From: Olivibacter domesticus
Lineage (GTDB): Bacteria > Bacteroidota > Bacteroidia > Sphingobacteriales > Sphingobacteriaceae
Reading direction: 5' to 3'
DNA: 64,000 nucleotides
NCBI RefSeq assembly: GCF_900109575.1
Contig: NZ_FOAF01000001.1
Location: 1,707,662 to 1,771,661, forward strand
Below are positions 10,289-59,161 of this stretch, piece by piece. The translations under genes and the position numbers were made by a program. The notes below the pieces were generated by a model that did not search any database, was not told the origin of the DNA, and was given only the letters and a program-made list of their open reading frames with translations. The first letter of the stretch is position 1, and the number at the start of each line of letters is the position of its first letter.

Positions 10289-10290
10289 CT

Positions 10291-37317: not shown

Positions 37318-37341
37318 AAAATTATCGTAATAAGTTAATAA

Positions 37342-38346: not shown

Positions 38347-38370
38347 ATCAAAACAACCTCATCTATAAAT

Positions 38371-38432: not shown

Positions 38433-38588
38433 TTTATGACAACACCCTGTAAAACAATTTATTCCTTGTCTTTTCGAAACTTAAGAGAGATTCTATATCC
38501 TGAAAATCAATATTTCTAATAAGTCCTATCAATTCCTGAGAAATTGGACAAACAAAGTGACCATTGCTCATTCCACAATGTGGATTAA

Positions 38589-40031: not shown

Positions 40032-40085
40032 ATATTTTATCAACTGCATATGTATCATATTATTAGGATCAATTTTTAATGAAGT

Positions 40086-43000
40086 TTAGAAACCAGCCTT
40101 TATGCCAAATGTATATGTTTTTGCAACTGGGTAGCTCAAATAGTCGGAACCACTTGATGGCACTTCCGGATCCCACCAAGAATAATCTGTGAATGTTAGC
40201 AAATTCTGTCCGCTTACGTAAACCTGTAAACGTTTCAGCCAAGAAACATTTAATTTATCAACAGGTAAGTTGTATGCCAATTGCACGTTTCTCAAACGAA
40301 GGAAAGAACCATCTTCAATCCATCTGTCAGAAATATTTGCATTAACCGTATTGCTGATTTTTGGATACTTCGCATTTGGATTTTCGGGTGTCCAATGATC
40401 ATATAATACATCTTTCACCATGTTCAATCCGGAAGAGTAGTCGATACTACTTCCAATGGCACTGGCATTAAACAAATCATTTCCTACACTCCCCTGAAAG
40501 AAGAAAGTAAAATCGAAATTCTTGTAAGACATCGTTGAGTTTAAGCCGTAAATAAAATCAGGATTCGGATTTCCAATAACAGTGCGGTCTTGGTTATTAA
40601 TGGTTCCGTCGTTGTTTAAATCCTTGTATGCAATTTTACCATCTTCATCATAACCATCTTCTACATAACCGTAAAAAACGCCTCTCTGTAAACCTTCACG
40701 TAATATAGTCCTCGAATCATTTACTACGTTAATCTTTAATTCGTCGCCAAAAATATCTGTCCCACCATATAGTTTTATAACTTCACTTCTATTGAAGGCT
40801 ATATTACCCGTAACGTCCCATTTGAACGCTCCTTTAAAGATATTTGCATTCAAGCCTAATTCAACTCCACTGTTACGAATCTGCCCTACATTCTGGATAG
40901 TACTTACATAGCCCATTGAAGTAGGGAGTGGTACGGAGTTTAAAAGGTCTTTCGTATTTTTCCGGTAATAATCTGCCGTGAAGACAAAACGGTTATCTAA
41001 AATTCCGAAATCTACCCCTGCATCAAATTGCTCTGTCGTTTCCCATTTTAAATTTTCAGGTAAAACAGTACCTGGAGCAAAACCTAAATAAAGATCTTCT
41101 CCGAAAACTGTATATCCTGATAATAAAGGATTGAAAGTGGCATAAAAGTCTTCTACTTGAGTACCTGTTTTCCCCCAGCTTACGCGAAGTTTAAGATCCG
41201 AGATCCATTCGGTGCCTTTCAGAAAATCCTCGTTAGACATGCGCCAAGCGAAAGCTCCGGAAGGGAAATATCCCCAACGATATCCTTCTTGGTAACGGGA
41301 AGAGCCATCCGCTCGAAAACTTGCTGTGAATAGATATTTCTCGTCGAGGGTATAATTAACCCTTGTTAGATACGACAATAACACGGATTTATTGTAAGCG
41401 GAACCTGGAACCAGTGGAACCTGTGCTCCTCCTAAATCATTCCATTCGCTTACGTTACTGATGAATCCCTGACCGCTTCCCATCACTAAACTGTTTGAAA
41501 AATTTTGATAGGTTCCTCCTACCAATACAGAAAAGTTATGCCGTTCGTTCAACGTTTTATTATAGTTAGCAGTGGCTTCTACGAGCATACTCTGCTCATT
41601 ATTAGAGGTCACACTCGCTCTTCCAGTAGAATTTTGAAATTTATTACTTTGATATTGATTAACGCGATCATCTCGATTTTCAATACCCGCCAATAACTTT
41701 ATGCTCAAATCCTGAATAGGACGATAAGTTAATGCTGCGTTTGCTAAAATTAAATTCGCTTGTGTTTGATTCTTTTCTTCATTAATCCAATTCAGGGGGT
41801 TCATAATATCTGGAGAAACGAATGGGTATGCTGATGAAAGCATACGATATGATCCATCGTCATTGTAAGGACTTAAAGTTGGCGGCGCGCCAATTAATGC
41901 AGAGATTAAAGAGTTTCCCCGTGCACCACCATTACTATCTTTTCTTCCTGTGATCAACCTGCTTAAAGTGGCATTTGCGTCAACAGTTAATTTATCACTG
42001 ATTTGGTGTTGAATATTAGAACGAAAAGAATAACGACTGTAATCACTTCCTTTGATAATACCATCTTGATCCAAAACGCTTCCACCTAATGAAAACTGTG
42101 TTTTTTCATTCCCTCCGCTAATATTAAGCGATGTGCTTTTTATAGGTGCACTGCGAAAAACGAAATCTTGCCAATCAAAATTTGGCATATTATTAATTTG
42201 CTCTTCTGTAAAATAGGGATCAACCCCATCATTTGCTGCACGTAAATTATAGAAAGTTGCATATTCGGGTCCAGTTAGTAAATCCAGTTTCTTCCGTAAC
42301 TGTTGTACGCCGTAGTTTGCTTCAAAATCGACCTGTGCTTCATTACCAGTGCCTTCAACCCCGCCCTGTTTAGTAGTAATAATTACGACACCGTTTGCTC
42401 CCCGCGAGCCGTAGATGGCCGTGGCTGAAGCGTCTTTCAGTATTTCCATGCTTTCAATATCCGCATTGTTGAGTATGGTTGGGTTACTACCAGAAAGGGG
42501 AAATCCATCCACTACATAAAGTGGCTCGTTACTTCCCAAAATTGAATTAGCACCACGAATACGAACAGACATTGCCGGGCCGGGTGCACCGGAAGCTTGC
42601 GATACCTGTACACCCGGCGCTCTACCAGATAATGATTGTACAGCGTTGCTAGTAGGAAACGCATTGATTTCAGCGGCCTTTACTTGAGCTACCGACCCCG
42701 TTAAATCTCGTTTCTTCACACTGCCGTAACCAATCACAACAACTTCTTCTAAACTCTCTTGTGCAGCTTGAAGTGAAACGTCTAATTTTTTTCTACTTCC
42801 CACACGTTCTTCTCGACTGCCGTAACCTGTATAGGAGAATACTAGAATGGTTCTTGAATCAACGGTAGCTTTATATCGGCCATTTGCATCTGTAGTGGTA
42901 CCTGTATTAGGTTTGCCTTTAACCATTACGGATACGCCGGGTAATGCCCCCCCTTTTTCATCAGATACAACACCTGTGATAGTGTCCTGCTTGGAGGTAC

Positions 43001-43166
43001 TTGTTGTGTCTGCAGGTGCATCTTTTGGCACTTCAATTGGTGGTTTAGGTACTTCTTGAGCATATGATGGCGATGTACATGATAAAATTGTCGACAAAAC
43101 ACATACAACGAATATTCCAGCATAATTAAACGATTGCATCGGACTTGATATAAATTTAATCACCAT
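40086..43166 (-). CDS. SusC/RagA family TonB-dependent receptor
   Basis: 1026 residues. A signal region ends near SPSYAQ. A carboxypeptidase-regulatory-like beta domain (TITGVVSDEKGGALPGVSVMVKG to about 140) precedes the plug, which includes EEVVVIGYGSVKKRDLTGSV and GSRGANGVVIITTKQG (the SusC signature). A large TonB-dependent barrel follows and ends in a Phe (FGIKAGF), the usual outer-membrane insertion signal. A Pro-rich stretch with PKPPIEVPKDAPAD lies before the regulatory domain. With the downstream SusD it forms an import complex powered by TonB. Substrate unknown. The start is the first Met (43166); an internal Met nine codons later is possible. Confidence 0.94.
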   Translation of the reverse strand: MVIKFISSPMQSFNYAGIFVVCVLSTILSCTSPSYAQEVPKPPIEVPKDAPADTTSTSKQDTITGVVSDEKGGALPGVSVMVKGKPNTGTTTDANGRYKATVDSRTILVFSYTGYGSREERVGSRKKLDVSLQAAQESLEEVVVIGYGSVKKRDLTGSVAQVKAAEINAFPTSNAVQSLSGRAPGVQVSQASGAPGPAMSVRIRGANSILGSNEPLYVVDGFPLSGSNPTILNNADIESMEILKDASATAIYGSRGANGVVIITTKQGGVEGTGNEAQVDFEANYGVQQLRKKLDLLTGPEYATFYNLRAANDGVDPYFTEEQINNMPNFDWQDFVFRSAPIKSTSLNISGGNEKTQFSLGGSVLDQDGIIKGSDYSRYSFRSNIQHQISDKLTVDANATLSRLITGRKDSNGGARGNSLISALIGAPPTLSPYNDDGSYRMLSSAYPFVSPDIMNPLNWINEEKNQTQANLILANAALTYRPIQDLSIKLLAGIENRDDRVNQYQSNKFQNSTGRASVTSNNEQSMLVEATANYNKTLNERHNFSVLVGGTYQNFSNSLVMGSGQGFISNVSEWNDLGGAQVPLVPGSAYNKSVLLSYLTRVNYTLDEKYLFTASFRADGSSRYQEGYRWGYFPSGAFAWRMSNEDFLKGTEWISDLKLRVSWGKTGTQVEDFYATFNPLLSGYTVFGEDLYLGFAPGTVLPENLKWETTEQFDAGVDFGILDNRFVFTADYYRKNTKDLLNSVPLPTSMGYVSTIQNVGQIRNSGVELGLNANIFKGAFKWDVTGNIAFNRSEVIKLYGGTDIFGDELKINVVNDSRTILREGLQRGVFYGYVEDGYDEDGKIAYKDLNNDGTINNQDRTVIGNPNPDFIYGLNSTMSYKNFDFTFFFQGSVGNDLFNASAIGSSIDYSSGLNMVKDVLYDHWTPENPNAKYPKISNTVNANISDRWIEDGSFLRLRNVQLAYNLPVDKLNVSWLKRLQVYVSGQNLLTFTDYSWWDPEVPSSGSDYLSYPVAKTYTFGIKAGF

Positions 43167-45609: not shown

Positions 45610-46947
45610 ATGCCATCTATTTTAATAAAATCAGCAACTATTGTTAACGAAGGAACTATTTCCACCGCAGATCTTTATCTTAATAACGGAATTATTGAGA
45701 TGATATCTAATGAGATTAATCATCCAGCAGATATTGTAATAAATGCTGAAGGACTTTATCTCTTTCCTGGTCTTATTGATGATCAGGTTCATTTTCGAGA
45801 ACCTGGATTAACTTATAAAGCGGACATCTGGCACGAAAGCCGCGCTGCTGTTGCTGGTGGCACAACGAGCTTTATGGAGATGCCTAATACCATACCAAAC
45901 ACACTTACCCAGGATCTCTTAGAAGAAAAATATAGTATAGCCGCTAAAAACTCCATAGCCAACTATTCATTCTTCATGGGGGCCGCTAACGATAATTTAG
46001 AAGAGGTTCTTAAAACGAATCCTGTAAATGTATGTGGGATCAAAGTATTTATGGGATCATCAACAGGTAATATGTTGGTAGATAGCGAGCAAACCTTAGA
46101 AAATATTTTTAAAAATGCCCCTACATTAATTGCTACGCATTGTGAAGATGAGAAGACTATAAGGGAAAACTTAGTGAAGTATAAACAACAATACCAGGAC
46201 AAACTAACCATCGATATGCATCCGTTAATACGCTCTGCAGAAGCTTGTTATAAATCCTCTTCACATGCGGTTGCGTTAGCAGAAAAATATGGAACCAGGT
46301 TACATATCTTACATATATCTACTGCTAAAGAAACAGAACTTTTCAGCAACGACATCTCCCTAAAAAATAAGAAAATAACTGCTGAAGCCTGTATTCATCA
46401 TTTATGGTTTAGCGATGCTGACTATAAAGAGAAAGGCAATTTTATTAAGTGGAATCCTGCAGTAAAAACAAAAAAAGACAGGGATGGTATTTTGCAGGCA
46501 GTATTGGATGGACGAATAGACGTCATCGCTACCGATCATGCACCACACACATTCGATGAAAAATCGAAACCATATGCCGAAGCTCCTTCAGGCGGTCCGC
46601 TCGTCCAACATGCCTTACAGGCATTATTAGATTTGTACCACGAGGAAAAAATCACGTTAGAACAAATTGTGGAGAAAACAGCTCATAATACGGCAATTTG
46701 TTTTCAGGTCGAAAACCGTGGATTTATTCGTGAGGGTTTTTATGCCGACTTAGTATTAGTTGATTTGAATAAGCCCTATACCGTTGATCGTTCTAATATT
46801 ATATCGAAATGCGGATGGTCGCCATTTGAGGGGCACACATTCAAATCATCCATTACACATACCATTGTTTCAGGAAATTTAGTCTTCGAAGATGGAAAAC
46901 TTATTGATGATAAACCTGGAAAACGCTTGTTATTTGATAGAAACTAA
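45610..46947 (+). CDS. pyrC: Dihydroorotase (Bacteroidota type)
   Basis: 445 residues of the amidohydrolase superfamily. The N-terminal metal motif is LIDDQVHFREPGL at 55-67, where the first His of the usual HxH is Gln59 and only His61 remains. The carboxylated Lys is in CGIKVFMGSSTGN, later His ligands are in IATHCEDE and LHILHIST, and the catalytic Asp is in VIATDHAPHT. The same QVH form occurs in other Bacteroidota dihydroorotases that I recall, such as the Porphyromonas one, so this is a clade trait and not damage. The enzyme closes carbamoyl aspartate to dihydroorotate in pyrimidine synthesis. Confidence 0.93.
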   Translation: MPSILIKSATIVNEGTISTADLYLNNGIIEMISNEINHPADIVINAEGLYLFPGLIDDQVHFREPGLTYKADIWHESRAAVAGGTTSFMEMPNTIPNTLTQDLLEEKYSIAAKNSIANYSFFMGAANDNLEEVLKTNPVNVCGIKVFMGSSTGNMLVDSEQTLENIFKNAPTLIATHCEDEKTIRENLVKYKQQYQDKLTIDMHPLIRSAEACYKSSSHAVALAEKYGTRLHILHISTAKETELFSNDISLKNKKITAEACIHHLWFSDADYKEKGNFIKWNPAVKTKKDRDGILQAVLDGRIDVIATDHAPHTFDEKSKPYAEAPSGGPLVQHALQALLDLYHEEKITLEQIVEKTAHNTAICFQVENRGFIREGFYADLVLVDLNKPYTVDRSNIISKCGWSPFEGHTFKSSITHTIVSGNLVFEDGKLIDDKPGKRLLFDRN

Positions 46948-47030
46948 TTACAATAGCTGTTTAGCACTAGCTTAGGGTATGAGATTAATTTTATGCCATT
47001 TCATTAAAACGGATATAAATAAGTTAATAC

Positions 47031-48125
47031 GTGGTTATGACAAAAATGCATGAAGACTACCAGAAAATCGACAAAAGAACTTTTTTGCATAACCTGGGCA
47101 CTGGATTAGCGTGCATGGCAACAATGTCCGTATCTTCCCTTGCAAGAGGTGAGGGACATAGTTATCAACAGGCGATCAAACCAATTTATCTAAACAAATT
47201 AAAAAGAGGAGATACTGTCGGTATAATTTGTCCGTCTTCAGCTATTGACGGTGAATTGCCGTTCATCCTTGCTCAAGAAACTTTTGAAGCTTTAGGGTTC
47301 AAAGTTAAATGGGGAGAGCATACACACGATAGGCTGGGGCATTTAGCAGGAAACGATGATGGTAAACTAGCGGATCTACATCGAATGTTTAAAGATGACC
47401 AAGTAAAAGGAATTATTTGTATGCGCGGTGGTTCAGGAGCGGCTCGACTGTTGGATAGAATTGATTATGATCTTATAAAACATAACCCTAAAATATTTTT
47501 AGGCTATAGTGATATCACAGCGCTGCATGCAGCGATACAAAGTCAAACTGGATTAATTACTTTTCATGGACCTGTAGGAACGAGTTCTTGGCCATCTTTT
47601 GTTGCTGATCAATTTGAAGCTTTATTTTTTAACGGTTTACCCCCCATATATGAAAATCCATTAAACAAAGGAGATGATCTAATTCCACGACAAAACAGGA
47701 TTCAGACGATTAATCCTGGTATTGCAAAAGGAAAATTATTAGGTGGAAATTTAACCGTATTAACAACAATTTCCGGCTCACCGTATTATCCTGATTTTAG
47801 CAATAGTATCTTATTTTTGGAAGATGTTTCGGAAGAACCCTACCGTATTGAACGGATGCTTTGTCAGTTAAAATTAAATGGGACCTTAGGGAAAATAAAA
47901 GGGTTTATTTTTGGAAAATGTACGGATTGCGCTCCAAATGGCGGTTATGGCTCCTTAACACTTGACGAAATTTTAAGTGACTATATTAAACCTTTAGCTA
48001 TACCTGCTTATCAAGGAGCATTGATTGGACATATTCGAGAACAGTTTATTCTTCCCGTTGGCGCACAAATAACAATGGATGCCGATAAAGGTGTCTTTTC
48101 TGTGGATGGGGAGATATTTAGCTAG
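47031..48125 (+). CDS. S66 family LD-carboxypeptidase (YkfA/LdcA-like)
   Basis: 364 residues. The S66 nucleophile elbow GYSDITAL places Ser near 160; the Glu and His partners are in FLEDVSEEPYRIE (about 264) and IGHIREQF (about 334). Family members remove the terminal D-Ala from murein tetrapeptides, cutting the L-meso-DAP/D-Ala bond. A KRTFLHNLGTGLACMATM leader before residue 40 resembles a Tat or Sec signal, suggesting a periplasmic form rather than the usual cytoplasmic LdcA. The Met at 47037 is an alternative start. The neighbours (M14 peptidase, NlpC/P60 protein, Ala-Glu epimerase) make murein-peptide breakdown the likely job. Confidence 0.9.
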   Translation: MVMTKMHEDYQKIDKRTFLHNLGTGLACMATMSVSSLARGEGHSYQQAIKPIYLNKLKRGDTVGIICPSSAIDGELPFILAQETFEALGFKVKWGEHTHDRLGHLAGNDDGKLADLHRMFKDDQVKGIICMRGGSGAARLLDRIDYDLIKHNPKIFLGYSDITALHAAIQSQTGLITFHGPVGTSSWPSFVADQFEALFFNGLPPIYENPLNKGDDLIPRQNRIQTINPGIAKGKLLGGNLTVLTTISGSPYYPDFSNSILFLEDVSEEPYRIERMLCQLKLNGTLGKIKGFIFGKCTDCAPNGGYGSLTLDEILSDYIKPLAIPAYQGALIGHIREQFILPVGAQITMDADKGVFSVDGEIFS

Positions 48126-48259
48126 CAAAAAAGTATTTATTTAGTTTAGGATTGAACGATATTAGATATTGAACAAGGAGATAATTACCTGATTCTTAAA
48201 TGGCGACTGTATTAATGCAGTAAATTGATTTAAGGACTTTACAATAAATATCATGACTT

Positions 48260-49747
48260 ATGAAAAAACTAAAATTTGGTTTACTATTGCTCACGATTAT
48301 GGCCTCTTGCCAAGAAAGTCAACATAATTCTAATAATAAAAACAGTTATACACCAGATACTACTATGCTTGCCAAAGCTTTTGAACTTTATAAAGAGTCT
48401 AGTCTCACACATCGTAGATTTAAACATGCAGCTATAGAACCATTGATTTTAAAGCGAAAAAATGATTCTATTTTTAAGGTAACTAATTTAGGTCTTTCAG
48501 TACAAAAGCGTCCACTTTATCAATTGCGTTATGGAAAAGGAGAAAAACGGATCATGCTCTGGTCGCAAATGCATGGGAATGAAAGTACAGCAACGATGGC
48601 CCTTTTTGACATTTTCAACTTTTTGGAGGGCCATAATGATGGATATGACTCTATCCGAAACCTATTAACAGAAAAGACAACTCTATTTTTTCTTCCGATG
48701 ATTAACCCCGACGGTGCTGAGATCTTCAATAGAAGAAATGCCCTTGATATTGATCTTAACAGAGATGCCCGTGAAACAGCTACCCCTGAAGCAGCTATAT
48801 TAAAAAAAGCAGCTGAGGTAAATAAACCAGCTTTCGGTTTTAATTTACATGATCAGCATATTTATTACAACGTACCAAGTACTGGCAATCCCGCAACCAT
48901 TTCTTTTTTAGCTCCGGCCTATAACTATGAAAAAGACATTAATAAAGTAAGAGGTCGTGCAATGCAACTTATTGTGGGTATGAACCAGCTTTTGCAGCAA
49001 TATATACCAAATGGCGTAGCAAAGTATGATGACACACATGAACCCAGAGGGTTTGGGGATAATTTTCAAAAGTGGGGTGCGAGCACAGTTCTCATTGAAT
49101 CAGGAGGATACAAAGGCGACCCTGAAAAACAATACATCAGAGAACTTAACTTTATGATTATCTTGAATGCTTTGATAGAAATTGCGCAGGAAAGTTATGA
49201 GCAATATAATCAAGCGGAATACGAAGATATCCCCGAGAATTCTTCCAAGCTTTCAGATTTATTAATCAAAAATATAAAAGCGGAAAGGGACTCTGTTGTA
49301 TATCAAGTCGATTTGGCCATCAAACGTGACGAGGTTACGGCCCCCGACAGTATTTTTTACACACGAGGAAGAATTGATGACGTTGGCGATCTTAAAGATA
49401 GTTATGGCTATCGGGAACTAGATGCAAAAGGCCTAACTTTTATGAAGGGAAAAATATATTCTTCCCCAATTAATCACGTGGGAGAATTAACACCACAAAG
49501 GGCGATGAACTTATTGCGTCAAGGATATTTAGCAGTAAAGTTGAGAAATGTTGCAGAAAATAAGCACTACAATTTACCTATTTTATTAAGCAGTACGGGC
49601 ATTCTTTATGGTAACAGTCCGACATTAGGTAGTCAGGCTAATTTCTTTTTAGCAAAAGAAGATAAACCGATGTATGCTATTATTAACGGTTATTTAATAG
49701 ACCTATCGAAAGAGCCGGAAGAAGAATTTAAAAACTATATTCAATAG
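48260..49747 (+). CDS. M14-family zinc carboxypeptidase, lipoprotein
   Basis: 495 residues. The signal MKKLKFGLLLLTIMASC ends in a lipobox, so the mature protein is lipidated at Cys17. Zinc ligands are His105 and Glu108 in MHGNEST and a His near 197 in NLHDQH; the catalytic Glu is near 280 in LIESGGYKG. NPDGAEIFNRRNALDIDLNRDA is another family block. The last 180 residues are a separate domain I do not recognise. M14 enzymes trim C-terminal residues, and some (for example gamma-D-Glu-DAP peptidases) act on murein peptides, which fits this locus; specificity is inferred. It lies 134 bases after the S66 gene on the same strand. Confidence 0.9.
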   Translation: MKKLKFGLLLLTIMASCQESQHNSNNKNSYTPDTTMLAKAFELYKESSLTHRRFKHAAIEPLILKRKNDSIFKVTNLGLSVQKRPLYQLRYGKGEKRIMLWSQMHGNESTATMALFDIFNFLEGHNDGYDSIRNLLTEKTTLFFLPMINPDGAEIFNRRNALDIDLNRDARETATPEAAILKKAAEVNKPAFGFNLHDQHIYYNVPSTGNPATISFLAPAYNYEKDINKVRGRAMQLIVGMNQLLQQYIPNGVAKYDDTHEPRGFGDNFQKWGASTVLIESGGYKGDPEKQYIRELNFMIILNALIEIAQESYEQYNQAEYEDIPENSSKLSDLLIKNIKAERDSVVYQVDLAIKRDEVTAPDSIFYTRGRIDDVGDLKDSYGYRELDAKGLTFMKGKIYSSPINHVGELTPQRAMNLLRQGYLAVKLRNVAENKHYNLPILLSSTGILYGNSPTLGSQANFFLAKEDKPMYAIINGYLIDLSKEPEEEFKNYIQ

Positions 49748-49835
49748 CTGCATTGCAGAAAACGGAGCAAATTTATTTAAAACGACGTTTTATAAAATTC
49801 ATACCAAATAAATAGCGTTCGACTGTTGTATAAAT

Positions 49836-49862
49836 TAATAAGGGGGAAATCCCCCCTATTAA
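49836..49862. terminator. Shared terminator between the M14 gene and susD
   Basis: GGGGG (49842-49846) pairs with CCCCC (49851-49855) around AAAT, extended by AT-rich flanks (AATAA and TATT). It lies between the convergent M14 peptidase and susD genes and, on the minus strand, is followed by TTATT. It can serve both transcripts. Confidence 0.55.
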
Positions 49863-49884
49863 AATTAAAATATTCAATTAATAT

Positions 49885-51339
49885 TTAATATCCAGGGTTT
49901 TGCTGCTTAGCAATTTCGGGATTTGCATTAATTTCAGTTTGCGAAATAGGCAAGAGCGTCTTGAAAAAGCTTCTATTAATTGATTTTTCCCTATGCGCAA
50001 CAGTTATTCCTCCAAAGTCATCATTGAATGTGATTGTTTTATTTAGGCGAATCATATCAAAAAAACGATGGCCTTCTCCAAATAGCTCTTTGCTGCGCTC
50101 GTCAAGGATCATATCCAAGGTAACTGTAGATGCGGTTGCTAAAGCTAAATTTGGTGACCGCTTACGAATTGCATTGAGGTAATTCGCCGCTGCAGCTTTA
50201 TCTGTATAGAAAGCTGCTTCTGCTGCTATTAAGTAAATTTCAGATAGCCGTATTACCTTTATATTCACAGCGGTTGCAGTGGATTTCCCGTCGCCTTCTA
50301 GCGAAGTGCTACCACTGTACTTATAACAAGACCCTAAACGTGTTTCGGATGTCTCGTCATAGCTCATTACTCCCCACCTTATGTCATCTGCGTCTTCACC
50401 TAACCTAGTAAGAAAGTAATCGCTCGCCATGAACCACCCCATAGCACTAGATGAACCATCCCCTAAACGCCTCAAATAAAAGCCTAATGACTCAGTACCC
50501 AAATCAGCTTCGTTCGGGAGTATACCCAACTCAAAAATCGATTCGGAACCAAACTGAGCTTTCCAGGAATTAACCCATTGATCATTTGCGTATAAAGTAT
50601 ACACATTGCTATTAATCAGCTCTTCAGCCGCGCTTAACGCTTCGACATACTTCTCCATGTATAAGTATACTCGCGCCTGCATGGCCTTATTTGCATAATA
50701 ATTAATAACACCATTAGATTTATCTTTTGATAACAAAGGAGATGCTTCGTTAAGATCGCTGATAATCTGATTGTAATTTTCTTCAACGGTTGCTCTCACA
50801 GGTTGTGCCGAAGCCTCTAATGTTGTGGTTATATTCGGAACACCAAACGAAGCCTTATCATCAGTATACGCTCTACCATATAACCGCACTAGGTCGAAAT
50901 ACATTAATGCTCTGGCCGTTAAAGCCTGTCCTTTATAATTACTAAAATCTTCTGAAGTGCCTTCATTTTCTAGTTTTTCAATGTTCTTTAATAGGTTATT
51001 TACTTGAAGAATTCCATCATACATTTGCGTCCAAAAGCCAGCATAATCGTTAGAAGAAACAGAATGGTTGAATGTATATAGCGCATCCAATCCCCTACCC
51101 TGTGAAGAAATGGTTAGATCTCCGCCTTTTGCATCGCCATACATAATAAAATTTCTGCCATAATAATTAAAACTTGTCATTTTGCGCAAGAGGCCATTCA
51201 TCATAGCTTTGGCATCTGATGCTGTTTTTATGGCGGTTTCTGAATCTGTAGAATCAGTAGGTTCTACCTCTAAAAAATCTTTGCAGGCAGTGCATGTAAA
51301 AATCAGTAACACTATCCATAATTTATGTAATATTTTCAT
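49885..51339 (-). CDS. RagB/SusD family lipoprotein of the murein-peptide locus
   Basis: 484 residues with lipoprotein signal ILHKLWIVLLIFTCTAC and a lipidated Cys. SusD features: FLEVEPTDSTDSETAIKTASDA, the helical block SNYKGQALTARALMYFDLVRLYGRAY, EIYLIAAEAAFYTD, and the C-terminal RSKELFGEGHRFFDMIR and NPGY. It should sit on the cell surface as the substrate-binding lid of the SusC partner that starts 123 bases upstream. Its location in an operon with NlpC/P60 and epimerase genes suggests peptides with D-amino acids as cargo; that is inference. Confidence 0.92.
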   Translation of the reverse strand: MKILHKLWIVLLIFTCTACKDFLEVEPTDSTDSETAIKTASDAKAMMNGLLRKMTSFNYYGRNFIMYGDAKGGDLTISSQGRGLDALYTFNHSVSSNDYAGFWTQMYDGILQVNNLLKNIEKLENEGTSEDFSNYKGQALTARALMYFDLVRLYGRAYTDDKASFGVPNITTTLEASAQPVRATVEENYNQIISDLNEASPLLSKDKSNGVINYYANKAMQARVYLYMEKYVEALSAAEELINSNVYTLYANDQWVNSWKAQFGSESIFELGILPNEADLGTESLGFYLRRLGDGSSSAMGWFMASDYFLTRLGEDADDIRWGVMSYDETSETRLGSCYKYSGSTSLEGDGKSTATAVNIKVIRLSEIYLIAAEAAFYTDKAAAANYLNAIRKRSPNLALATASTVTLDMILDERSKELFGEGHRFFDMIRLNKTITFNDDFGGITVAHREKSINRSFFKTLLPISQTEINANPEIAKQQNPGY

Positions 51340-51462
51340 CCGTATATGATTATTTGTTCATCGTTGGTTAAATTTTAGAGGCATTCACGCTGCCTTCGGC
51401 GGTATGAGTGATTTTCTCATTGGCATAAATGAGCTCGTTATACTCGGTTTGTTTTTTAATCA

Positions 51463-54400
51463 TTAGAAACTAAACTCAACACCGAATGTATAAATTTTTC
51501 CAATTGGTGTTTCCCAGCCCCTCGTACCGTATTGGTTAACTTCTGGATCCGCAATCTTATATTTCGAAAATGTTAAGAGATTTGTTCCATTAAAATAAAC
51601 CCTTGCACTGGAAACCCCTACTTTTCTGGTGATGGCAGTTGGAATGCTATATGCCAAATTGATGTTTTTTAGCCGCAAGAAACTTGCGCTATGCATCTGG
51701 CGGCTACTGTATTTTTGTGGGTCCGTCAGGTCATTTCCATCCAACTTTGGTAAGCTGCCACCTGTGTTAGAAGCCGTCCACATATTGTCGTAGTAGTATT
51801 CGGATCGAATTCGTTCCCAATAGTACCCGTCATCCGCCACATCTTTGAACGCTCCATCATAAAGGTAACCACCCAATTTATAGATAAAATTAAAACCGAG
51901 CGATATTCCCTTATATTCCACATCAGTATTAAACCCACCATATACCGTAGGCAACGCTGAACCTAAAATTTTATAATTTGCTTTCGACCAATCATTAGTT
52001 GCACCTCGCCCATTATACACAAAATCACCGTCAGTTGCATTTTCAGGATTGTTTACGTACCATACGTTTTTTCCATTTTCAGGATCTACTCCAGCCCATT
52101 CATAGCCATAAAAACTTAACACCGATTCGCCTTCTCTATAAATATATTGAGCCCTATCGTCATCTCCTGTTGGATCATACCATATAATATCCTGTCCCTT
52201 AACATCTCCTTGATTTTTATATAGCTTCGTTACTTTTGATTTGATAAACGAGGCATTCACGCTTGCACTCCATCGCCATTTATCAGATCGAATAATATCA
52301 TACCCTAAATCTACCTCAAAGCCTCTATTATTAATTTCTCCTACATTCTTTAACGTCGAACTGAAACCCGTTACTGTAGAAATAGGGACATCTTGTAGCA
52401 GGTCTTTGGAATCACGGTTAAAGTATTCAACCGTACCATATAATCGATTATCAAAAAAACCGAACTCCAAAGCCAAATTTGTTGTATAACTGGTTTCCCA
52501 TGTCAGATTCTTATCAGCAATCGTACTAATTGCTCCACCCGGTGACCCCATATATTTATTATCAGTATATTTGGTTAAGGACATCCATCCATAGTCTGCT
52601 ATCGGAAGCGTGCCATTTACACCATATGAAGCCCTTACACGTAAATTACTTACATAATCCAGCTCTTTCATAAATGCTTCTTGATTAATGCGCCACGAAC
52701 CTGCTACAGACCAGAAATCTCCCCAGCGGGTATCTGGCCCCAAACGAGAAGAACCATCACGACGATAGGAGGCAGAAGCATAATATCGTTGCGCATAATT
52801 GTACTCCGCCCTTGATAATACAGACAACATATTGTACCCCCAGCTATAAGCGCTTGCGTCTAGTACACCGGCGGTGGCCACTGTATGCAAAGCACTCGAA
52901 GGAAGATCTGTTCCTGTCGACCGTTGAAAATCCGTTTGATTTTTTTCTACCTCGAAACCCGCTAGTAAACTTAAGCCATGCAAACCAAACTCTTTGCTAT
53001 AATTAGCTGTAGTAGAAGACACTATCTTTCTGATATTGGTACTCATTTCTGTTACAGAACCATTAGTAGTGGAGCCGTCAAAATGGTTTGCACTATAATA
53101 AAGATGATCTTTAATTTCTGCATTATCGAATGAAAATACCGACTTAATATTTAACTCCGGAAGGATATTAATAGTTAATGTTTCATTAGCAGACACCCGT
53201 AATGTTTTGGATTTATTCTCCCATTCATTGTTATAGTATTCGGCATTATAAGCATAACTTCCATAGCGATCAGTCCAAGGTTTACCAGTTTTATAGTCAG
53301 TAGGCCAATATAATGGCCAAAGTAAATTCCGCGACTGAAGGAAGTAATTAGAACCTGTGCTTCTTGTATCATTGAATCCTTTTTGAGTATTGTTTGATAC
53401 ATTAACATTAGACATAAACTCAATGTGTTTGCCAATTTTCTGTGACAAATTAATACGTCCGGCTATACGGTCATAGTCGTTCACCTTTATCCTACTTTGA
53501 TCTTTGGTATATGAAAGCGAGGAATAATATTTTGTTTTGTCGTCTCCCCCACTTACAGACAAGTCATTTGTTTGGTAAACGCCTGTTCTAAAAAGGACAT
53601 CGTCCCAGTTAAAGTATGTACCCTCCCTGTTTACAATACCATCGGTCATTCCTTTAATGTTCACATTTTCGTACAGACCGGTACCGTTTGTTTCAAAATA
53701 ATAACCATGCTTGTTGAACCGCGTATTTAATTTACTAAGTGCGTCCGCATTCGCGAACGACTCGTCTCTTCCATTGGAGGTGCGGTAATCATGAAACACT
53801 TGATATAACATGTTCACTTGTTCTTGTACACCTGCAGTTTCATAGTTATCGGTTGCCCAAGACGGCGTTATGCCAATTGAAGACCTTAGATTTATAACCG
53901 GCTTCCCCTCCTTTCCTTTTTTCGTTGTAATGAGAATAACACCATTTGCTGCCCTCGAGCCATATAGGGATGAAGCTGCTGCATCCTTTAACACTGTAAT
54001 GGTTTCTATATCTGCAGGATTTAGTGAATTCATTACGTTGTTGGAAGTGTAAATATAATCTCCCATTTGCCCAGCATCACCAGAGACAACCGGTACACCA
54101 TCAATCACATATAATGGTTCATTAGATGCATTCATTGAGCCAATACCACGAATACGGATGCTCGGTGCAGCTCCCGCCTGGCCCGACGAATTAGTTACCT
54201 GCATACCTGGTACGCGCCCAACCAGCGCATTTTCAAAAGAAACCGTTGGAATATCATTCACATCGCTTTGTTTAACTACCGAAGCGGATCCTGTATATGT
54301 TCCTTTCTTCGCCGTACCATAGGCCACTACCATAACCTCATCCAATGTCTGATCTCCCGTTTCAAGGGATACATTAATAACGGACTGGCTACCAACAGGG

Positions 54401-54645
54401 TGTTCAAGAGGTAGATATCCTACCGATGTAAAAATGAGAACTGCATTTTCTGGAACATTATTTAATGCGTAATGCCCTTCCGTATTGGATGAAGTACCTT
54501 GATCAGTTCCTTTGATTTTTATACTGGCAACTACCGGACTACCATCTTTTGCAGCAGTAACCACCCCCGTCACTCTCCTTTGTTGTTGTGCAAGAGTCGT
54601 TAAACTAATTAACAAACTGCACATAATTAGTAAAGATCGTTTCAT
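51463..54645 (-). CDS. SusC/RagA family TonB-dependent receptor of the murein-peptide locus
   Basis: 1060 residues. A Sec signal (LLIMCSLLISLTTLAQ) is followed by a carboxypeptidase-regulatory-like domain (RVTGVVTAAKDGSPVVASIKIKG to about 95), the plug with LDEVMVVAYGTAKKGTYTGSA and GSRAANGVILITTKKG (SusC signature), and a large barrel ending in Phe (FGVEFSF). It is a gated outer-membrane importer powered by TonB-ExbBD. The gene lies between the epimerase gene (79 bases upstream) and its susD, and all run on the minus strand. It shares only the general SusC framework with the other copy at 40086-43166. Confidence 0.94.
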   Translation of the reverse strand: MKRSLLIMCSLLISLTTLAQQQRRVTGVVTAAKDGSPVVASIKIKGTDQGTSSNTEGHYALNNVPENAVLIFTSVGYLPLEHPVGSQSVINVSLETGDQTLDEVMVVAYGTAKKGTYTGSASVVKQSDVNDIPTVSFENALVGRVPGMQVTNSSGQAGAAPSIRIRGIGSMNASNEPLYVIDGVPVVSGDAGQMGDYIYTSNNVMNSLNPADIETITVLKDAAASSLYGSRAANGVILITTKKGKEGKPVINLRSSIGITPSWATDNYETAGVQEQVNMLYQVFHDYRTSNGRDESFANADALSKLNTRFNKHGYYFETNGTGLYENVNIKGMTDGIVNREGTYFNWDDVLFRTGVYQTNDLSVSGGDDKTKYYSSLSYTKDQSRIKVNDYDRIAGRINLSQKIGKHIEFMSNVNVSNNTQKGFNDTRSTGSNYFLQSRNLLWPLYWPTDYKTGKPWTDRYGSYAYNAEYYNNEWENKSKTLRVSANETLTINILPELNIKSVFSFDNAEIKDHLYYSANHFDGSTTNGSVTEMSTNIRKIVSSTTANYSKEFGLHGLSLLAGFEVEKNQTDFQRSTGTDLPSSALHTVATAGVLDASAYSWGYNMLSVLSRAEYNYAQRYYASASYRRDGSSRLGPDTRWGDFWSVAGSWRINQEAFMKELDYVSNLRVRASYGVNGTLPIADYGWMSLTKYTDNKYMGSPGGAISTIADKNLTWETSYTTNLALEFGFFDNRLYGTVEYFNRDSKDLLQDVPISTVTGFSSTLKNVGEINNRGFEVDLGYDIIRSDKWRWSASVNASFIKSKVTKLYKNQGDVKGQDIIWYDPTGDDDRAQYIYREGESVLSFYGYEWAGVDPENGKNVWYVNNPENATDGDFVYNGRGATNDWSKANYKILGSALPTVYGGFNTDVEYKGISLGFNFIYKLGGYLYDGAFKDVADDGYYWERIRSEYYYDNMWTASNTGGSLPKLDGNDLTDPQKYSSRQMHSASFLRLKNINLAYSIPTAITRKVGVSSARVYFNGTNLLTFSKYKIADPEVNQYGTRGWETPIGKIYTFGVEFSF

Positions 54646-54724
54646 TTGAATAGTTTAGTTAAGATTGAGAAAATTTAGATCATAATTCAGGTATTATATT
54701 ATAATTTTTTATATATTATATTAC

Positions 54725-55858
54725 TCATAATGAACGTTTTGAAACACCAACGCCAGGTTCGTTCGGCACCGTTATCTTCCCATTAACTACTTGCATTCCG
54801 TGAAACACATCATTTCTTATTAAAAGGGCACCATCTAGGTCTGCCCAATCTACGATCGGAGCTAGCTGAGATGCTGCTGAAATAGCACAGGAGGTTTCCG
54901 TCATACAGCCCAGCATCACTTTCATATCTAAGGCTTTAGCCAACTCGGCCATCTTATGTGCTTCGCGCATACCTGTACATTTCATAAGTTTTATATTAAT
55001 GCCATTATAAACACCATGCGCTTTTTTAACATCCGCTAACCGCTGCACGGCCTCATCTCCTATAGTAGGAATCGGACTTCTTTCCGTTAGCCAAGCATTA
55101 TCATCTATCTGCTCTTTAGGCATGGCCTGTTCTAAAAAAACCACTCCTCTATCGGCTAACCAATGGGCCATTTCAAGCGCAAATTCTTTCTTCTTCCATC
55201 CCTGATTAACATCAACACACAACGGTTTGTCGGTTACCTCTCTGATGGTTTCGATCATCATCTTATCACTATCCAAACCCAATTTTACTTTAAGAATTTT
55301 GTATGGCTCTGCTTCACGTACCTTTTGCTTCACTACTTCCGCCGTGTCAATGCCAATTGTATAAGAGGTGTTTGGGGCGGTAGCTGGGTTAAACCCCCAG
55401 ATACGACACCAAGGTTGCCGCATCATTTTCCCTAACAAATCATGTAATGCGATGTCTACAGATGCCTTTGCCGCGGTGTTTTTGGGCATTAATGTATCCA
55501 CATAACCTAGAATATCCTCAATTAAAAAGGGGTCGTTAAATTTGGTTAAATCTACTTTACTTAAAAAGCTAAGAACGCTTTCGTGCGACTCACCTAGATA
55601 AGGGGGCATAGACGCCTCTCCATAACCTATGACCCCGTCAAACTCCAATTCTGTTAGTACTACCGGTGTGGTACTTCGAGATCCAGCTGCAAGGGTAAAT
55701 ACATGTTTTAACGTTAATGTATATGGTCTGTATCGTAAAATAAATTTACCTAGACGTTGTTCTGTTGTTTTTCCTGTGGCTAGTAAAGCTGCGTAAGGAG
55801 CCAATGACAAAGTTGCTGCTAAGGAGCTAGCTTTTAAAAAAATCCTGCGATTGATCAT
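54725..55858 (-). CDS. Dipeptide epimerase, L-Ala-D/L-Glu epimerase type (YkfB-like)
   Basis: 377 residues of the enolase superfamily, muconate-cycloisomerase/dipeptide-epimerase branch. Catalytic features in order: KVK near 189-191 (acid-base Lys), metal ligands Asp in CVDVNQGW (about 214), Glu in FLEQAMPK (about 241) and Asp in TIGDEAVQ (about 267), then the second Lys in NIKLMKCTGMREA (about 290). The N-terminus MINRRIFLKASSLAAT is a Tat-like signal, unusual for an epimerase. It should convert L-Ala-D-Glu to L-Ala-L-Glu from murein peptides. It is 31 bases downstream of the NlpC/P60 gene. Confidence 0.88.
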   Translation of the reverse strand: MINRRIFLKASSLAATLSLAPYAALLATGKTTEQRLGKFILRYRPYTLTLKHVFTLAAGSRSTTPVVLTELEFDGVIGYGEASMPPYLGESHESVLSFLSKVDLTKFNDPFLIEDILGYVDTLMPKNTAAKASVDIALHDLLGKMMRQPWCRIWGFNPATAPNTSYTIGIDTAEVVKQKVREAEPYKILKVKLGLDSDKMMIETIREVTDKPLCVDVNQGWKKKEFALEMAHWLADRGVVFLEQAMPKEQIDDNAWLTERSPIPTIGDEAVQRLADVKKAHGVYNGINIKLMKCTGMREAHKMAELAKALDMKVMLGCMTETSCAISAASQLAPIVDWADLDGALLIRNDVFHGMQVVNGKITVPNEPGVGVSKRSL

Positions 55859-55889
55859 ACTTCTATATTAAAGTTTAGATATTGTTTGA

Positions 55890-57098
55890 CTAATTAACAC
55901 GCTTCACACCCTCGTTACCTATACTCCCCAGGTATCTTCTAGCAGCCACAACTGTACGGCTCTGAAAATCATCGTAATTTGGATCGTTATTTAACATACT
56001 GTTAATTCTAACTTTACCGGCAGAATGAATAAATTGCCCCTCACCCATATACAACGCAACATGTGTTACGCGCGCGTTTGGCGTTCTGTGTGCACCACCT
56101 GCAAAAAAAAGCAGATCACCCGCTTTTAGATTCTTTAAAGCTTTTGTTATATCTAATTCATCATTTGTAAGGATATCAACTGGCTCCCCTACCAATACCT
56201 GCTGAGACGCATCTCTGGGAATAACCAATCCATTCATAAAATAGGCTGTTTTTGTGAAACCACTGCAATCTACTCCCTTTATAGAGGTACCCCCCCATAA
56301 ATAGGGAACACCAATCATCCTCTTAGCTATTTTAATAATTGACGCTGCCGATGCAACAGTATTTTTCTTCCAATTACTATATTCCGCCATCAGTTCTTTT
56401 TCTATAAATCCTTCTCTCCCGTCAGGAAATAGGGCTGCATAAAACCCATCTTTTTCTCCTTTATATGTTAGTATATTTCCTAAAACCAAATCTGATACAC
56501 GTTGCGACTGTTTGTTTGCCTCACTGTATGCATGGCCATAATCTTCTATAAAGATCAGCCGCTTTTTTTCATTCCAATTATCAATATCTGCTTTACTTTT
56601 CAAACTCACCGCTGCATTATCCATCCATCCGATGTAACCATCTGGTGTTCGAATTAAGTAATAGCCTCCCTGTTTTTTAAGAATATCCATTTGCCATCCT
56701 AGCAATGCTTGTGAAGCCATTTCCGCCGCATTTTTTGGTTGGGTTCTTATGTTTCCGACGGAAACGTTTACTAAACCAAAGACATATTCACTTAAAGACG
56801 TATCAGGCAGTAACCTAATTGATATTGGTGTGTCTAGATTTTTGGCCTTTACACTTTTTATGAAGCTCATAGCAGCGTTTTTGCACGTTGTCTCTAAGCT
56901 AAAGACTCCTGATGAATCACTTATCAAAGTAAATATCTCAGTCCTTTTGTCAGGGGCATATGCTTTGGCCACATCCCGAGCAATAGCTTCCATCTTTTTT
57001 ATTAAAACAGAATCAGGAGCAGCTTCTGAGAGCGCATAACAAATAAATAACTGTAAGAAAATCAGGCAAATTCTTCTCATATCAATTAAGGTGGGCAT
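55890..57098 (-). CDS. C40 (NlpC/P60) peptidase with SH3-like domains (YkfC-like)
   Basis: 402 residues. A signal peptide (ICLIFLQLFICYALSEA) is followed by a lead of about 100 residues, then SH3b-like segments (VSVGNIRTQPKNAAEM, GYIGWMDNAAVS, FPDGREGFIEKELM). The NlpC/P60 catalytic domain begins near 255: Cys in KGVDCSGFTK (about 277), His in VTHVALYMG (about 346) and a third residue in FIHSAGKV (about 358). This is the layout of YkfC-type endopeptidases, which cut the gamma-D-Glu-DAP bond. It is the first gene of a four-gene minus-strand operon with the epimerase, susC and susD, and is divergent from the Ntn hydrolase. Confidence 0.9.
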   Translation of the reverse strand: MPTLIDMRRICLIFLQLFICYALSEAAPDSVLIKKMEAIARDVAKAYAPDKRTEIFTLISDSSGVFSLETTCKNAAMSFIKSVKAKNLDTPISIRLLPDTSLSEYVFGLVNVSVGNIRTQPKNAAEMASQALLGWQMDILKKQGGYYLIRTPDGYIGWMDNAAVSLKSKADIDNWNEKKRLIFIEDYGHAYSEANKQSQRVSDLVLGNILTYKGEKDGFYAALFPDGREGFIEKELMAEYSNWKKNTVASAASIIKIAKRMIGVPYLWGGTSIKGVDCSGFTKTAYFMNGLVIPRDASQQVLVGEPVDILTNDELDITKALKNLKAGDLLFFAGGAHRTPNARVTHVALYMGEGQFIHSAGKVRINSMLNNDPNYDDFQSRTVVAARRYLGSIGNEGVKRVN

Positions 57099-57258
57099 AT
57101 ATTACACTAATATAGAAGCAAAGATTTCGAAATACAAATATTTATGCGCATTTTAATTAAAAAACGCAAAATAATGCAGTCTAATAAAAAGTCTTTATCG
57201 AAGAGAGGGCTTCAAACCTAATTTAAGCTTTGTAATGACTTAATTAACGTATTTTTTT

Positions 57259-57266
57259 TAAGTTTG
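57259..57266 (+). promoter_or_regulatory. Putative -7 promoter box of the Ntn hydrolase gene
   Basis: TAAGTTTG lies 19 bases before the ATG at 57285. The nearest TTTG is 26 bases upstream, further than the usual spacing, so this promoter is probably weak or regulated. Confidence 0.4.
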
Positions 57267-57284
57267 CTTTTGAAAACATAACAC

Positions 57285-58310
57285 ATGATAAATAGAAGGA
57301 AGTTTATTCAAAAAAGTTTACTAAGTACTGCCGCTTTAAGTTTAGGAAACAACCTTTCTGTCAACGGGAAAACAATAGAATCAAAAGGTAAAGTAACGAA
57401 GCCTATCGTTATTTCTACCTGGGATTTTGGCATAGCAGCAAACCAGGCAGCATGGAAAATACTAAAGGATAACGGAAGAGCTTTAGACGCTGTGGAAGCA
57501 GGTGTTAGAATACCTGAAGCAGACTTAAAGAATGTTACGGTTGGTAAAGGTGGCTATCCTGACCGCGACGGCCATGTTACCTTAGATGCCTGCATTATGG
57601 ACGAAAATGGTAATTGTGGAGCTGTTTTAGCGATGGAACATATAACACATGCCATATCCGTTGCACGCTTAGTAATGGAAAAAACGCCTCATGTAATGTT
57701 GGCGGGTGAAGGAGCCTTACAGTTTGCCTTGGAGAACGGTTTTCAGAAAGAAAATCTCTTAACGGAAAGTGCTGAAAAAGCATGGCAAGAATGGTTAAAA
57801 AAAGCAGAGTATAAACCCATTATGAACATTGAAAACCAACATTTTTCCCCAAATAAACTTCCTGGAAATCAATATAATCACGATACAATAGGTATGCTTG
57901 CCCTCGATGCTAAGGGGAATCTCAGCGGTGCTTGTACTACCAGCGGAATGGCCTTTAAAATGCACGGCAGAGTGGGCGATAGTCCAATTATTGGAGCTGG
58001 TCTCTATGTTGACAACGAAATTGGCGCCGCTACCTCAACTGGTGTTGGTGAAGAAGTTGTAAGAACCGTTGGCAGTTTTTTAGTTGTTGAACTTATGAGA
58101 CAAGGGTATTCTCCTGAAGATGCTTGTAAAGAAGCTGTTGAAAGAATAATTAGAAAAAAACCTCAAAAAGCTAAAGAAATTCAAGTAGGTTTTTTAGCCA
58201 TAAATAAAAACGGACAATATGGCGCCTACGCATTACAGAAAGGCTTTTCATTTGCCGTTTGTAATGAGGAAACACAAGATCTACTCATTAAAGGTAAAAG
58301 TATATTCTGA
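57285..58310 (+). CDS. N(4)-(beta-N-acetylglucosaminyl)-L-asparaginase (Ntn hydrolase)
   Basis: 341 residues. The N-terminus MINRRKFIQKSLLSTAALSL is a Tat-like export signal. The aspartylglucosaminidase/isoaspartyl peptidase self-cleavage site HDTIGML places the nucleophile Thr near 201. The alpha chain contains WDFGIAANQAAWKILKDNGRALDAVEAG, the beta chain GVGEEVVRTVGSFLVVELMRQG. It should hydrolyse N-linked GlcNAc-Asn or isoaspartyl bonds in the periplasm. It is divergent from the YkfC-like gene over 186 bases, so it may belong to the same peptide-scavenging locus. Confidence 0.9.
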   Translation: MINRRKFIQKSLLSTAALSLGNNLSVNGKTIESKGKVTKPIVISTWDFGIAANQAAWKILKDNGRALDAVEAGVRIPEADLKNVTVGKGGYPDRDGHVTLDACIMDENGNCGAVLAMEHITHAISVARLVMEKTPHVMLAGEGALQFALENGFQKENLLTESAEKAWQEWLKKAEYKPIMNIENQHFSPNKLPGNQYNHDTIGMLALDAKGNLSGACTTSGMAFKMHGRVGDSPIIGAGLYVDNEIGAATSTGVGEEVVRTVGSFLVVELMRQGYSPEDACKEAVERIIRKKPQKAKEIQVGFLAINKNGQYGAYALQKGFSFAVCNEETQDLLIKGKSIF

Positions 58311-58389
58311 AAATATGTTATCTAAAGCATTACATTTTTTTATCAGGTGTGAAGGATGAAATTCGCAACCAATAATGAACAAATACGTC

Positions 58390-58417
58390 TTGATACTTGT
58401 GTCTTATACCTTGATAC
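58390..58417 (+). repeat. TTGATAC repeats upstream of cutC
   Basis: TTGATAC occurs at 58390-58396 and 58411-58417, with a related TTATACC between. It is the same heptamer as in the 16176-16239 cluster, here 25 bases before the cutC start. A tandem ATAACGA pair follows. Confidence 0.45.
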
Positions 58418-58441
58418 TAATAACGAATAACGAATATATAC

Positions 58442-59161
58442 ATGGCACTTGAAATATGCGCGAACTCGTTCGCTTCAGCTATAGCAGCGCAGAATGGTGG
58501 GGCACAAAGAATAGAACTTTGTGAAAATTTAAATGAAGGGGGAACAACTCCATCTTATGGCACTATCAAAAAAGTACGCGAAACAACTCAAATAAAAGTG
58601 TATGTATTGATTAGACCAAGAGCGGGCGATTTCCTCTATACACGGGAGGAATTTGAAGTTATGAAGGAGGATATCGTAAATTGTAAAGCGCTAGGTTGCG
58701 ATGGAGTGGTAATCGGTATCTTAGACGCAGAAGGCAATGTTGACATAGAACGTACGAAAGAATTGGTGAACATAGCTTCTCCAATGGGTGTTACTTTTCA
58801 TAGGGCATTCGATAGTTGCAATAATGGCTTACAGGCCTTAGAAGACATCATTCACTGTGGCTGTGAAAGAATACTAACTTCGGGCATGAAAAATACGGCT
58901 TTTGACGGTCGTGTATTTTTGAAAGAACTGGTAGAAAAAGCTGCAAACAGAATTATCATCATGCCGGGTTCTGGTGTAAATGAAGACAATATTTCAGAAT
59001 TGATGATTGCAACAAAAGCACAGGAATATCATACTTCTGCAAAAACCCCTGTTAAAAGTATGATGAAATATCAGAATCCTTCAATACAGAATATGGGAGA
59101 ATTGGTAGAAGTAAGTAACGAGGATACGATCAGAAGAATTGTGAAATTGATAAATAATTAG
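58442..59161 (+). CDS. cutC: Copper homeostasis protein CutC
   Basis: 239 residues of the CutC family, a TIM barrel. Characteristic are LEICANSFASAIAAQNGGAQRIELCENLNEGG at the start, VYVLIRPRAGDF, CDGVVIGILDAEGNVD, TFHRAFD and RILTSGMKNTAF, and the IIIMPGSGVNEDNI loop. CutC is described as cytoplasmic and linked to copper handling, though its mechanism is disputed. The Cys residues of the family (LCENL and CKALGCDG) are present. It stands alone, between TTGATAC repeats and a large palindrome. Confidence 0.93.
   Translation: MALEICANSFASAIAAQNGGAQRIELCENLNEGGTTPSYGTIKKVRETTQIKVYVLIRPRAGDFLYTREEFEVMKEDIVNCKALGCDGVVIGILDAEGNVDIERTKELVNIASPMGVTFHRAFDSCNNGLQALEDIIHCGCERILTSGMKNTAFDGRVFLKELVEKAANRIIIMPGSGVNEDNISELMIATKAQEYHTSAKTPVKSMMKYQNPSIQNMGELVEVSNEDTIRRIVKLINN

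Follow-up and report, generated by a model that had tools for sequence, protein, structure and literature searches.

The stretch of DNA examined here, referred to below as the window, covers 64,000 nucleotides of the 6.78 Mb genome of Olivibacter domesticus (contig NZ_FOAF01000001.1, positions 1,707,662 to 1,771,661), and the system in question is a minus-strand run of four genes that encode, in this order, an NlpC/P60 endopeptidase, a dipeptide epimerase, a SusC-type transporter and a SusD-type lipoprotein (Table 1). The original prediction had described a locus of six genes for scavenging murein (peptidoglycan) peptides, in which an S66 LD-carboxypeptidase and an M14 peptidase accompany this run. 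All six genes were confirmed as open reading frames, and their families hold: Pfam cut-offs were passed by both S66 domains, M14, both SusD domains, Plug, CarbopepD_reg_2, both MR_MLE domains, NLPC_P60 and SH3, and SusC is recovered by TIGR models. The gene coordinates also give the gaps of 31, 79 and 123 bases that had been proposed within the run. However, the S66 and M14 genes, which do adjoin SusCD, are located on the plus strand behind a dihydroorotase and converge on susD, and are therefore not members of the run; likewise, the span proposed for the locus also takes in a previously unnamed plus-strand Asparaginase_2 gene. No glycoside hydrolase was detected by Pfam among the nine scanned proteins of 45610-59158, so the carbohydrate-active enzymes that go with SusCD in a polysaccharide utilisation locus are missing there, and the description of the locus as a peptide equivalent of such a system is a fair analogy.

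Table 1. Genes of the murein-peptide locus and its flanks, with window coordinates.
Product	Position	Strand	Models and signals
S66 LD-carboxypeptidase-family protein (YkfA/LdcA/MccF family)	47031-48125	+	PF02016 + PF17676
M14 zinc carboxypeptidase-like lipoprotein	48260-49747	+	PF00246; lipobox by eye
SusD-type lipoprotein, type A	49885-51339	-	PF14322 + PF07980; lipobox Cys19
SusC/RagA-type TonB-dependent outer-membrane transporter, type A	51463-54645	-	TIGR04056 + TIGR04057
Dipeptide (L-Ala-D/L-Glu type) epimerase	54725-55858	-	both MR_MLE domains; Tat-like signal by pattern
YkfC-type NlpC/P60 endopeptidase (gamma-D-Glu-diamino acid), first gene of run	55890-57098	-	NLPC_P60 + SH3
Glycosylasparaginase-type Asparaginase_2, divergent from run	57285-58310	+	PF01112; Tat-like signal by pattern

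In the chain of evidence that leads from sequence to substrate, the strong link is provided by the first gene of the run. In PMC2954226, the YkfC subfamily of NlpC/P60 enzymes is defined by Asp256 and Tyr118 (SH3b1) of the Bacillus cereus enzyme BcYkfC, whose catalytic residues are Cys238, His291 and His303, and its non-cyanobacterial members are described as having two SH3b domains. The same source argues that YkfC-type enzymes need a free N-terminal L-Ala and that, therefore, their substrates are stem peptides without sugar. Placing the window protein on the BcYkfC chain 3h41 yielded Y155, Y266, W268, D277, C278, S279, R295, D296, H346 and H358, and these positions were followed in 74 NlpC rows, namely the window and the 73 of 80 scanned loci with an NlpC row above 200 bits. 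All of them were invariant (74/74) except H358, kept in 71/74; thus, the two subfamily residues, D296 and Y155 (the equivalent of Tyr118), and the catalytic C278, H346 and H358 are in place, and the YkfC assignment passes the published residue tests. Additionally, position 257 is occupied by Ala, as noted for dipeptidyl-peptidase VI in the same paper, and the best PDB matches, 3npf/3pvq, carry that name. Pfam recognises a single SH3 stretch (117-163), the alignment to 3npf spans residues 104-396, and the N-terminus, judged by eye, carries a Sec-type signal.

The second gene of the run encodes an enzyme whose best PDB match is 3iji (481.9 bits), a Bacteroides thetaiotaomicron enzyme solved with L-Ala-D-Glu, followed by the L-Ala-D/L-Glu epimerase 1jpd (132.1 bits). 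The KxK motif, the second Lys, the three metal ligands (D/E/D) and the C-terminal DxD are invariant in 81/81 epimerase rows, in agreement with the YkfB-type assignment made previously. KxK, the second Lys and DxD are also found in 25 more distant relatives, so that these motifs do not set the clade of the window apart. Scores for the NCBIfam equivalogs of L-Ala-D/L-Glu epimerase (NF011708, 153 bits against a cut-off of 343) and of DgcA (NF042940, 200.7 against 400) stay below threshold, and by its sequence the protein is filed only under the wider dipeptide epimerases. Its N-terminus, MINRRIFLK, follows the pattern of a twin-arginine translocation (Tat) signal, and TatC is encoded in the same genome.

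The two remaining genes present what is expected of a SusCD/RagAB importer: SusC scores 794.9 bits with TIGR04056 (cut-off 368.25) and also matches TIGR04057, and the adjoining SusD is a lipoprotein whose lipobox Cys19 is invariant in 29 sequences. An AlphaFold2 (AF2) model of SusD (predicted local distance difference test, pLDDT, 81.0; predicted template modelling score, pTM, 0.86) comes closest to 3mcx (BT_2365), 3kez and 3myv, all of them structural-genomics entries listed without a ligand, while RagB and the B. thetaiotaomicron SusD appear at ranks 13 and 24, both far below these three. The fold, therefore, does not choose between a peptide and a glycan. SusC genes are also abundant in this genome, with at least 56 above the cut-off (of 215 first-look candidates, 56 were scored), so that finding one next to the epimerase in a single genome says little.

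For this reason weight falls on the conservation of the neighbourhood, a comparison that had been suggested along with the original prediction. A scan of a genome collection retained the best 80 of 394 epimerase relatives, comprising 57 Bacteroidota loci (41 Sphingobacterium, 9 Parapedobacter, 2 Arcticibacter and 1 each from Olivibacter, Desertivirga, Mucilaginibacter, Chitinophaga and Rhinopithecimicrobium) and 23 from Ignavibacteria, Gemmatimonadota and others; the control was a more distant clade of epimerases (25 loci, 34-57% identity, no Tat pattern). It was verified that NlpC lies directly upstream of the epimerase in 53/57 Bacteroidota loci and that SusC lies directly downstream, on the same strand, in 36/57 compared with 0/25 in the distant clade (Fisher P 1.2e-8, uncorrected for kinship and with the 57 loci weighted to Sphingobacterium). 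A chance neighbourhood was rejected on this comparison, bearing in mind that the loci are related and so weighted. The adjacent SusC genes belong to Sphingobacterium (33/41), Parapedobacter (2/9) and Rhinopithecimicrobium (1/1), and a SusC above 100 bits occurs anywhere in the locus DNA of 45/57 loci versus 1/25 in the distant clade.

More than one kind of importer is found in this position, which represents a fair link in the same chain of evidence. Of the 36 adjacent SusC proteins, 32 are of the same type as that of the window (type A) and 4 are of type C, a lumped class defined by 100-900 bits to either SusC query and not shown to be one type; one further type C locus was found in the family sample described below (L021 of genome G019). 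In 3 of the 32 type A loci a second pair, type B, stands further down behind type A, and SusC is split over two open frames in one type A locus (L120) and one type C locus (L092). Over a quick tree of 96 epimerase rows, in which many branches are weak and some are long, parsimony requires that SusC adjacency changed 6 times or more and the Tat label 4 times or more. Additionally, genes of murein use occur at related loci: MurQ in the locus DNA of 4/57 (one each in Desertivirga, Arcticibacter, Mucilaginibacter and Chitinophaga; in L017 over the equivalog cut-off, 322.7 against 302) and NamZ in 2/57, both Arcticibacter (in L019 by Pfam), a link between the epimerase clade and murein use that does not depend on YkfC. 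In 4/5 of the loci from these four genera SusC is also present in the locus DNA, not directly behind the epimerase. Taken together, the conserved SusC adjacency, the several SusCD types and the nearby MurQ support a coupling of SusCD to murein-peptide use.

The Tat-like signal of the epimerase is distributed by lineage. Judged by pattern, an RRxFL-type signal occurs in 6/57 Bacteroidota loci, in the window and in G003, a genome of the same genus, and is absent from the 51 Sphingobacterium, Parapedobacter and Rhinopithecimicrobium loci. Among the 23 epimerases from outside Bacteroidota (within L072-L125), which are 64-70% identical to that of the window, 21 show the pattern and 13 have NlpC directly upstream; two of these loci (L112 and L113), labelled Tenericutes, fall among Melioribacter and may be mislabelled bins. 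The genome of the window also encodes a second epimerase (43% identity, no signal), which is followed by a DUF819 membrane protein and has MurQ about 9 kb away (G000:C10:474934-485725); a DUF819 relative follows the epimerase in 4/25 loci of the distant clade (L013, L031, L040 and L041).

What the sequence itself shows is the order of the genes and how far it is conserved, the residues of YkfC, the motifs of the epimerase and the signals (by pattern or by eye); from these we infer joint transcription of the run as well as the activities, compartments, transport step and substrate of the following scheme. Peptides of the kind L-Ala-gamma-D-Glu-mDAP(-D-Ala) would cross the outer membrane through SusCD. 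Once they are in the periplasm, a terminal D-Ala could be trimmed off by the S66 enzyme, and the YkfC-type enzyme would hydrolyse the bond between gamma-D-Glu and the diamino acid; L-Ala-D-Glu would then be converted by the Tat-exported epimerase to L-Ala-L-Glu, which is an ordinary dipeptide. Where the epimerase has no signal, as in Sphingobacterium and Parapedobacter, the dipeptide would enter the cytoplasm before epimerisation. On balance, the four-gene run probably constitutes an importer and first-steps unit for free murein stem peptides, the conserved coupling favouring the import that had been proposed and the transport step itself being deduced. The broader proposal, to which we give slightly less than an even chance, is that the YkfC-YkfB pair of Sphingobacteriaceae is provided with an exchangeable import slot (A, A+B, C or B alone), which would make these pairs a SusCD class dedicated to sugar-free peptidoglycan peptides, with the epimerase periplasmic (Tat) or cytoplasmic according to lineage.

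Several observations weigh against a dedicated murein-peptide importer. SusC is not directly behind the epimerase in 21 Bacteroidota loci (7 Parapedobacter, 8 Sphingobacterium and 6 from Olivibacter, Desertivirga, Arcticibacter, Mucilaginibacter and Chitinophaga), and 7/9 Parapedobacter have no SusCD and yet have NlpC, epimerase, M14 and S66. No SusC was seen in the 23 non-Bacteroidota loci, some with short flanks, nor in 28 loci of other families or classes (about 1.5 kb of flank), though 19 of the latter have NlpC upstream. The main count excludes loci L014-L021 and L135-L145, 19 in all, of which nine appear to come from the same genomes as named loci (L015, L016, L017, L019, L021, L135, L136, L140 and L143), and in the ten others (L014, L018, L020, L137, L138, L139, L141, L142, L144 and L145) SusC is directly downstream in a single case, L014. 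Across the five genomes of the genus, type A stands behind the epimerase in the window alone: G003 has type B alone, G002 has a beta-lactamase-family gene in the SusC slot, and G001 and G004 are without this epimerase. The Bacteroidota-type promoter consensus has 9 matches in the window versus 4.8 expected by shuffling, none of them upstream of the run.

The same side of the balance receives SusD proteins found away from the epimerase. In a sample of 161 genomes of the family (epimerase orthologue cut at 530 bits or more, up to 9 SusD candidates scored per genome), the orthologue was found in 46, with NlpC beside it in 41/46; a SusD of type A or of type B, the latter defined from G003 (locus L014), stands beside only 18/46, at least, type C lying outside the search. 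Type B SusD occurs in 31 family genomes, beside the epimerase in 5, of which 4 also have type A, and elsewhere in 26. Type A SusD occurs in 26: the original prediction would have failed had close homologues of this SusCD sat mostly with unrelated enzymes, and 17 lie beside the epimerase while 9 lie elsewhere, which goes part of the way towards that outcome without reaching it. The nine are mostly among genes recognised as housekeeping, and neither NlpC nor the epimerase is found near any of them (0/9 loci, within the fetched flanks). One (L130) adjoins a dihydroorotase, three have peptidase neighbours that are considered below, and the rest, including L131, which is cut by a contig end, have no recognised partner. 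A quick SusD tree of 31 rows, made up of the window, all 9 outside rows and 21 in-locus rows (of 31 available), needs 2 changes of the in-locus or outside label: eight of the outside rows group together, whereas the ninth, from G057, has no epimerase beside its SusD and still belongs to the clade of the window. A tie of SusCD to the locus by descent, in its strict form, is therefore not supported. In a sample of 247 genomes of the class (up to 6 SusD candidates scored each), SusD at 63% identity was found once more, in G407, on a contig other than that of its epimerase and NlpC.

These outside pairs lend some credit to the explanation that SusCD is a general oligopeptide importer which takes murein peptides among many others, with the epimerase and NlpC forming an independent recycling pair captured in the run. 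In 3/9 outside type A loci (L127, L129 and L134) an M14 relative lies within 3 kb of SusD, convergent and with one gene between, and an S9-like gene is also near (M14 and S9 both recognised by Pfam in L127); S9 peptidases also come after the type B pair in all 3 loci fetched (L191, L192 and L193) of the 26 where that pair is not beside the epimerase, and RagB, of the RagAB peptide transporter, ranks above the B. thetaiotaomicron SusD among the folds. Since more than one SusCD type was recruited directly behind the same epimerase, which is more than a general importer needs, this explanation appears unlikely, while carrying appreciable weight. It could also be proposed that the run recaptures the cell's own wall peptides lost in growth rather than feeding on other bacteria, and the presence of the enzymes without an adjacent SusC in Parapedobacter and other phyla is what housekeeping recycling would predict. 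However, recycling alone requires no outer-membrane importer, and internal recycling could be served by the second, signal-less epimerase near MurQ, so that we regard it as improbable. The import of an unrelated glycan, with accidental placement beside murein enzymes, draws on the abundance of SusC genes in this genome and on the ligand-less entries nearest to SusD; it is opposed by the adjacency of 36/57 versus 0/25 and by the lack of glycoside hydrolases among the nine proteins, and is the least credible of these explanations, with very little probability.

The neighbours of the run were also examined. The S66 protein, whose two domains score 134.4 bits (cut-off 25) and 121.2 bits (cut-off 23.7), is safely assigned by sequence at the family level only: the muramoyltetrapeptide carboxypeptidase equivalog NF008424 gives 163.7 bits where 378 are required, and in the PDB the matches to MccF chains are no worse than those to murein LD-carboxypeptidases. 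The earlier YkfA assignment thus stands for the family and not for the specific enzyme. Its N-terminus (KRTFLHNLG) looks export-like by eye, and S66 occurs in the locus DNA of 20/57 Bacteroidota loci, compared with 22/57 for M14 and 32/57 for Asparaginase_2. In the M14 protein, which bears a lipoprotein signal by eye, H105, E108, H197 and E280 (presumed metal and catalytic residues) are invariant in 19 sequences; its AF2 model (pLDDT 76.3, pTM 0.66) matched many carboxypeptidases at low TM-score, no murein-specific relative was found by sequence or fold comparison, and for a murein amidase role these generic fold matches offer nothing decisive. The Asparaginase_2 protein was considered as a murein enzyme and rejected, since its closest solved relatives are glycosylasparaginases (E about 1e-124) and no murein tie was found.

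Other arrangements were observed along the way. A second SusC/SusD pair lies on the minus strand of the window (40086-43166, SusC by eye, and 38589-40058), followed on the same strand by glycerol-3-phosphate dehydrogenase and gamma-glutamyltranspeptidase (35608-37317; whole region 35608-43166). In the place of SusCD, the Parapedobacter locus L016 has two Gfo/Idh/MocA-type oxidoreductases, ThuA and DUF6807 (Pfam), and L048 has the same sugar-oxidoreductase group, judged by likeness of protein starts. In G407, which belongs to another family of the class, AnmK is encoded about 1.5 kb upstream of the SusCD pair orthologous to that of the window (L183, 10761-16443), on the same strand and separated from it by two small genes. 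A possible second kind of SusCD-epimerase locus is seen in L193 (G022, 2118-13573), where the genes behind a type B SusCD pair encode, on the same strand, an S9 peptidase, a double beta-lactamase-family protein, a DUF1611 protein resembling DgcN and an enzyme similar to dipeptide epimerases, the last two with scores under the model cut-offs.

The known substrates of SusCD systems are glycans and protein-derived peptides; if the murein-peptide reading is true, wall peptides that contain gamma linkages and D-amino acids would be added to them. With SusCD joined to two enzymes of narrow substrate, this small and conserved run represents a testable candidate for peptidoglycan-peptide import, and the difference in Tat signal between lineages offers a natural comparison for where epimerisation takes place. 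Among known importers, RagAB is a SusCD-type peptide importer like the one proposed, although among the fold matches its RagB comes well behind 3mcx, 3kez and 3myv; murein enzymes are not known to be linked to RagAB. Uptake of environmental muropeptides has been described in Tannerella forsythia, also a member of Bacteroidota, where the accounts centre on the inner-membrane AmpG; the main texts of both papers mention TonB 0 times, and no outer-membrane importer is named in the passages considered (PMC5388701, PMC7670621).

The closest precedents are two. The ykfBC pair, formed by the YkfC endopeptidase and the YkfB epimerase, is known in Bacillus and others, including Bacteroides thetaiotaomicron and Gramella forsetii (PMC2954226), and resembles the window in the side-by-side enzymes and the YkfC subfamily residues. 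However, ykfA-D of B. subtilis adjoins the ABC dipeptide transporter dppB-E, whereas the next genes in the window are susC and susD, and that paper reports no signal peptide for the two Bacillus YkfB proteins, unlike the Tat-like signal of the window epimerase. In Urechidicola, a Flavobacteriaceae symbiont, a SusCD locus consists mostly of murein metabolism genes and includes an L-Ala-D/L-Glu epimerase (PMC10199937), so that both systems join SusCD to this enzyme. The Urechidicola locus deals with sugar and peptide (MurQ, NagB, AmpG, AmpD, DacA and GH3/10/18/171), and no NlpC/P60 YkfC is named for it in the portion of the paper considered, whereas the run of the window has such an enzyme and consists of peptide enzymes only. 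The literature search, with incomplete coverage of subscription papers, returned no report of SusCD joined to ykfBC. Since the ykfBC pair in Bacteroidota and the murein SusCD locus of Urechidicola are, as far as these sources go, already in print, the run of the window is best regarded as a new variant on published themes rather than a wholly new system, to which the Tat-like signal of the epimerase, present here by pattern and absent in Sphingobacterium and Parapedobacter, would add a new detail.

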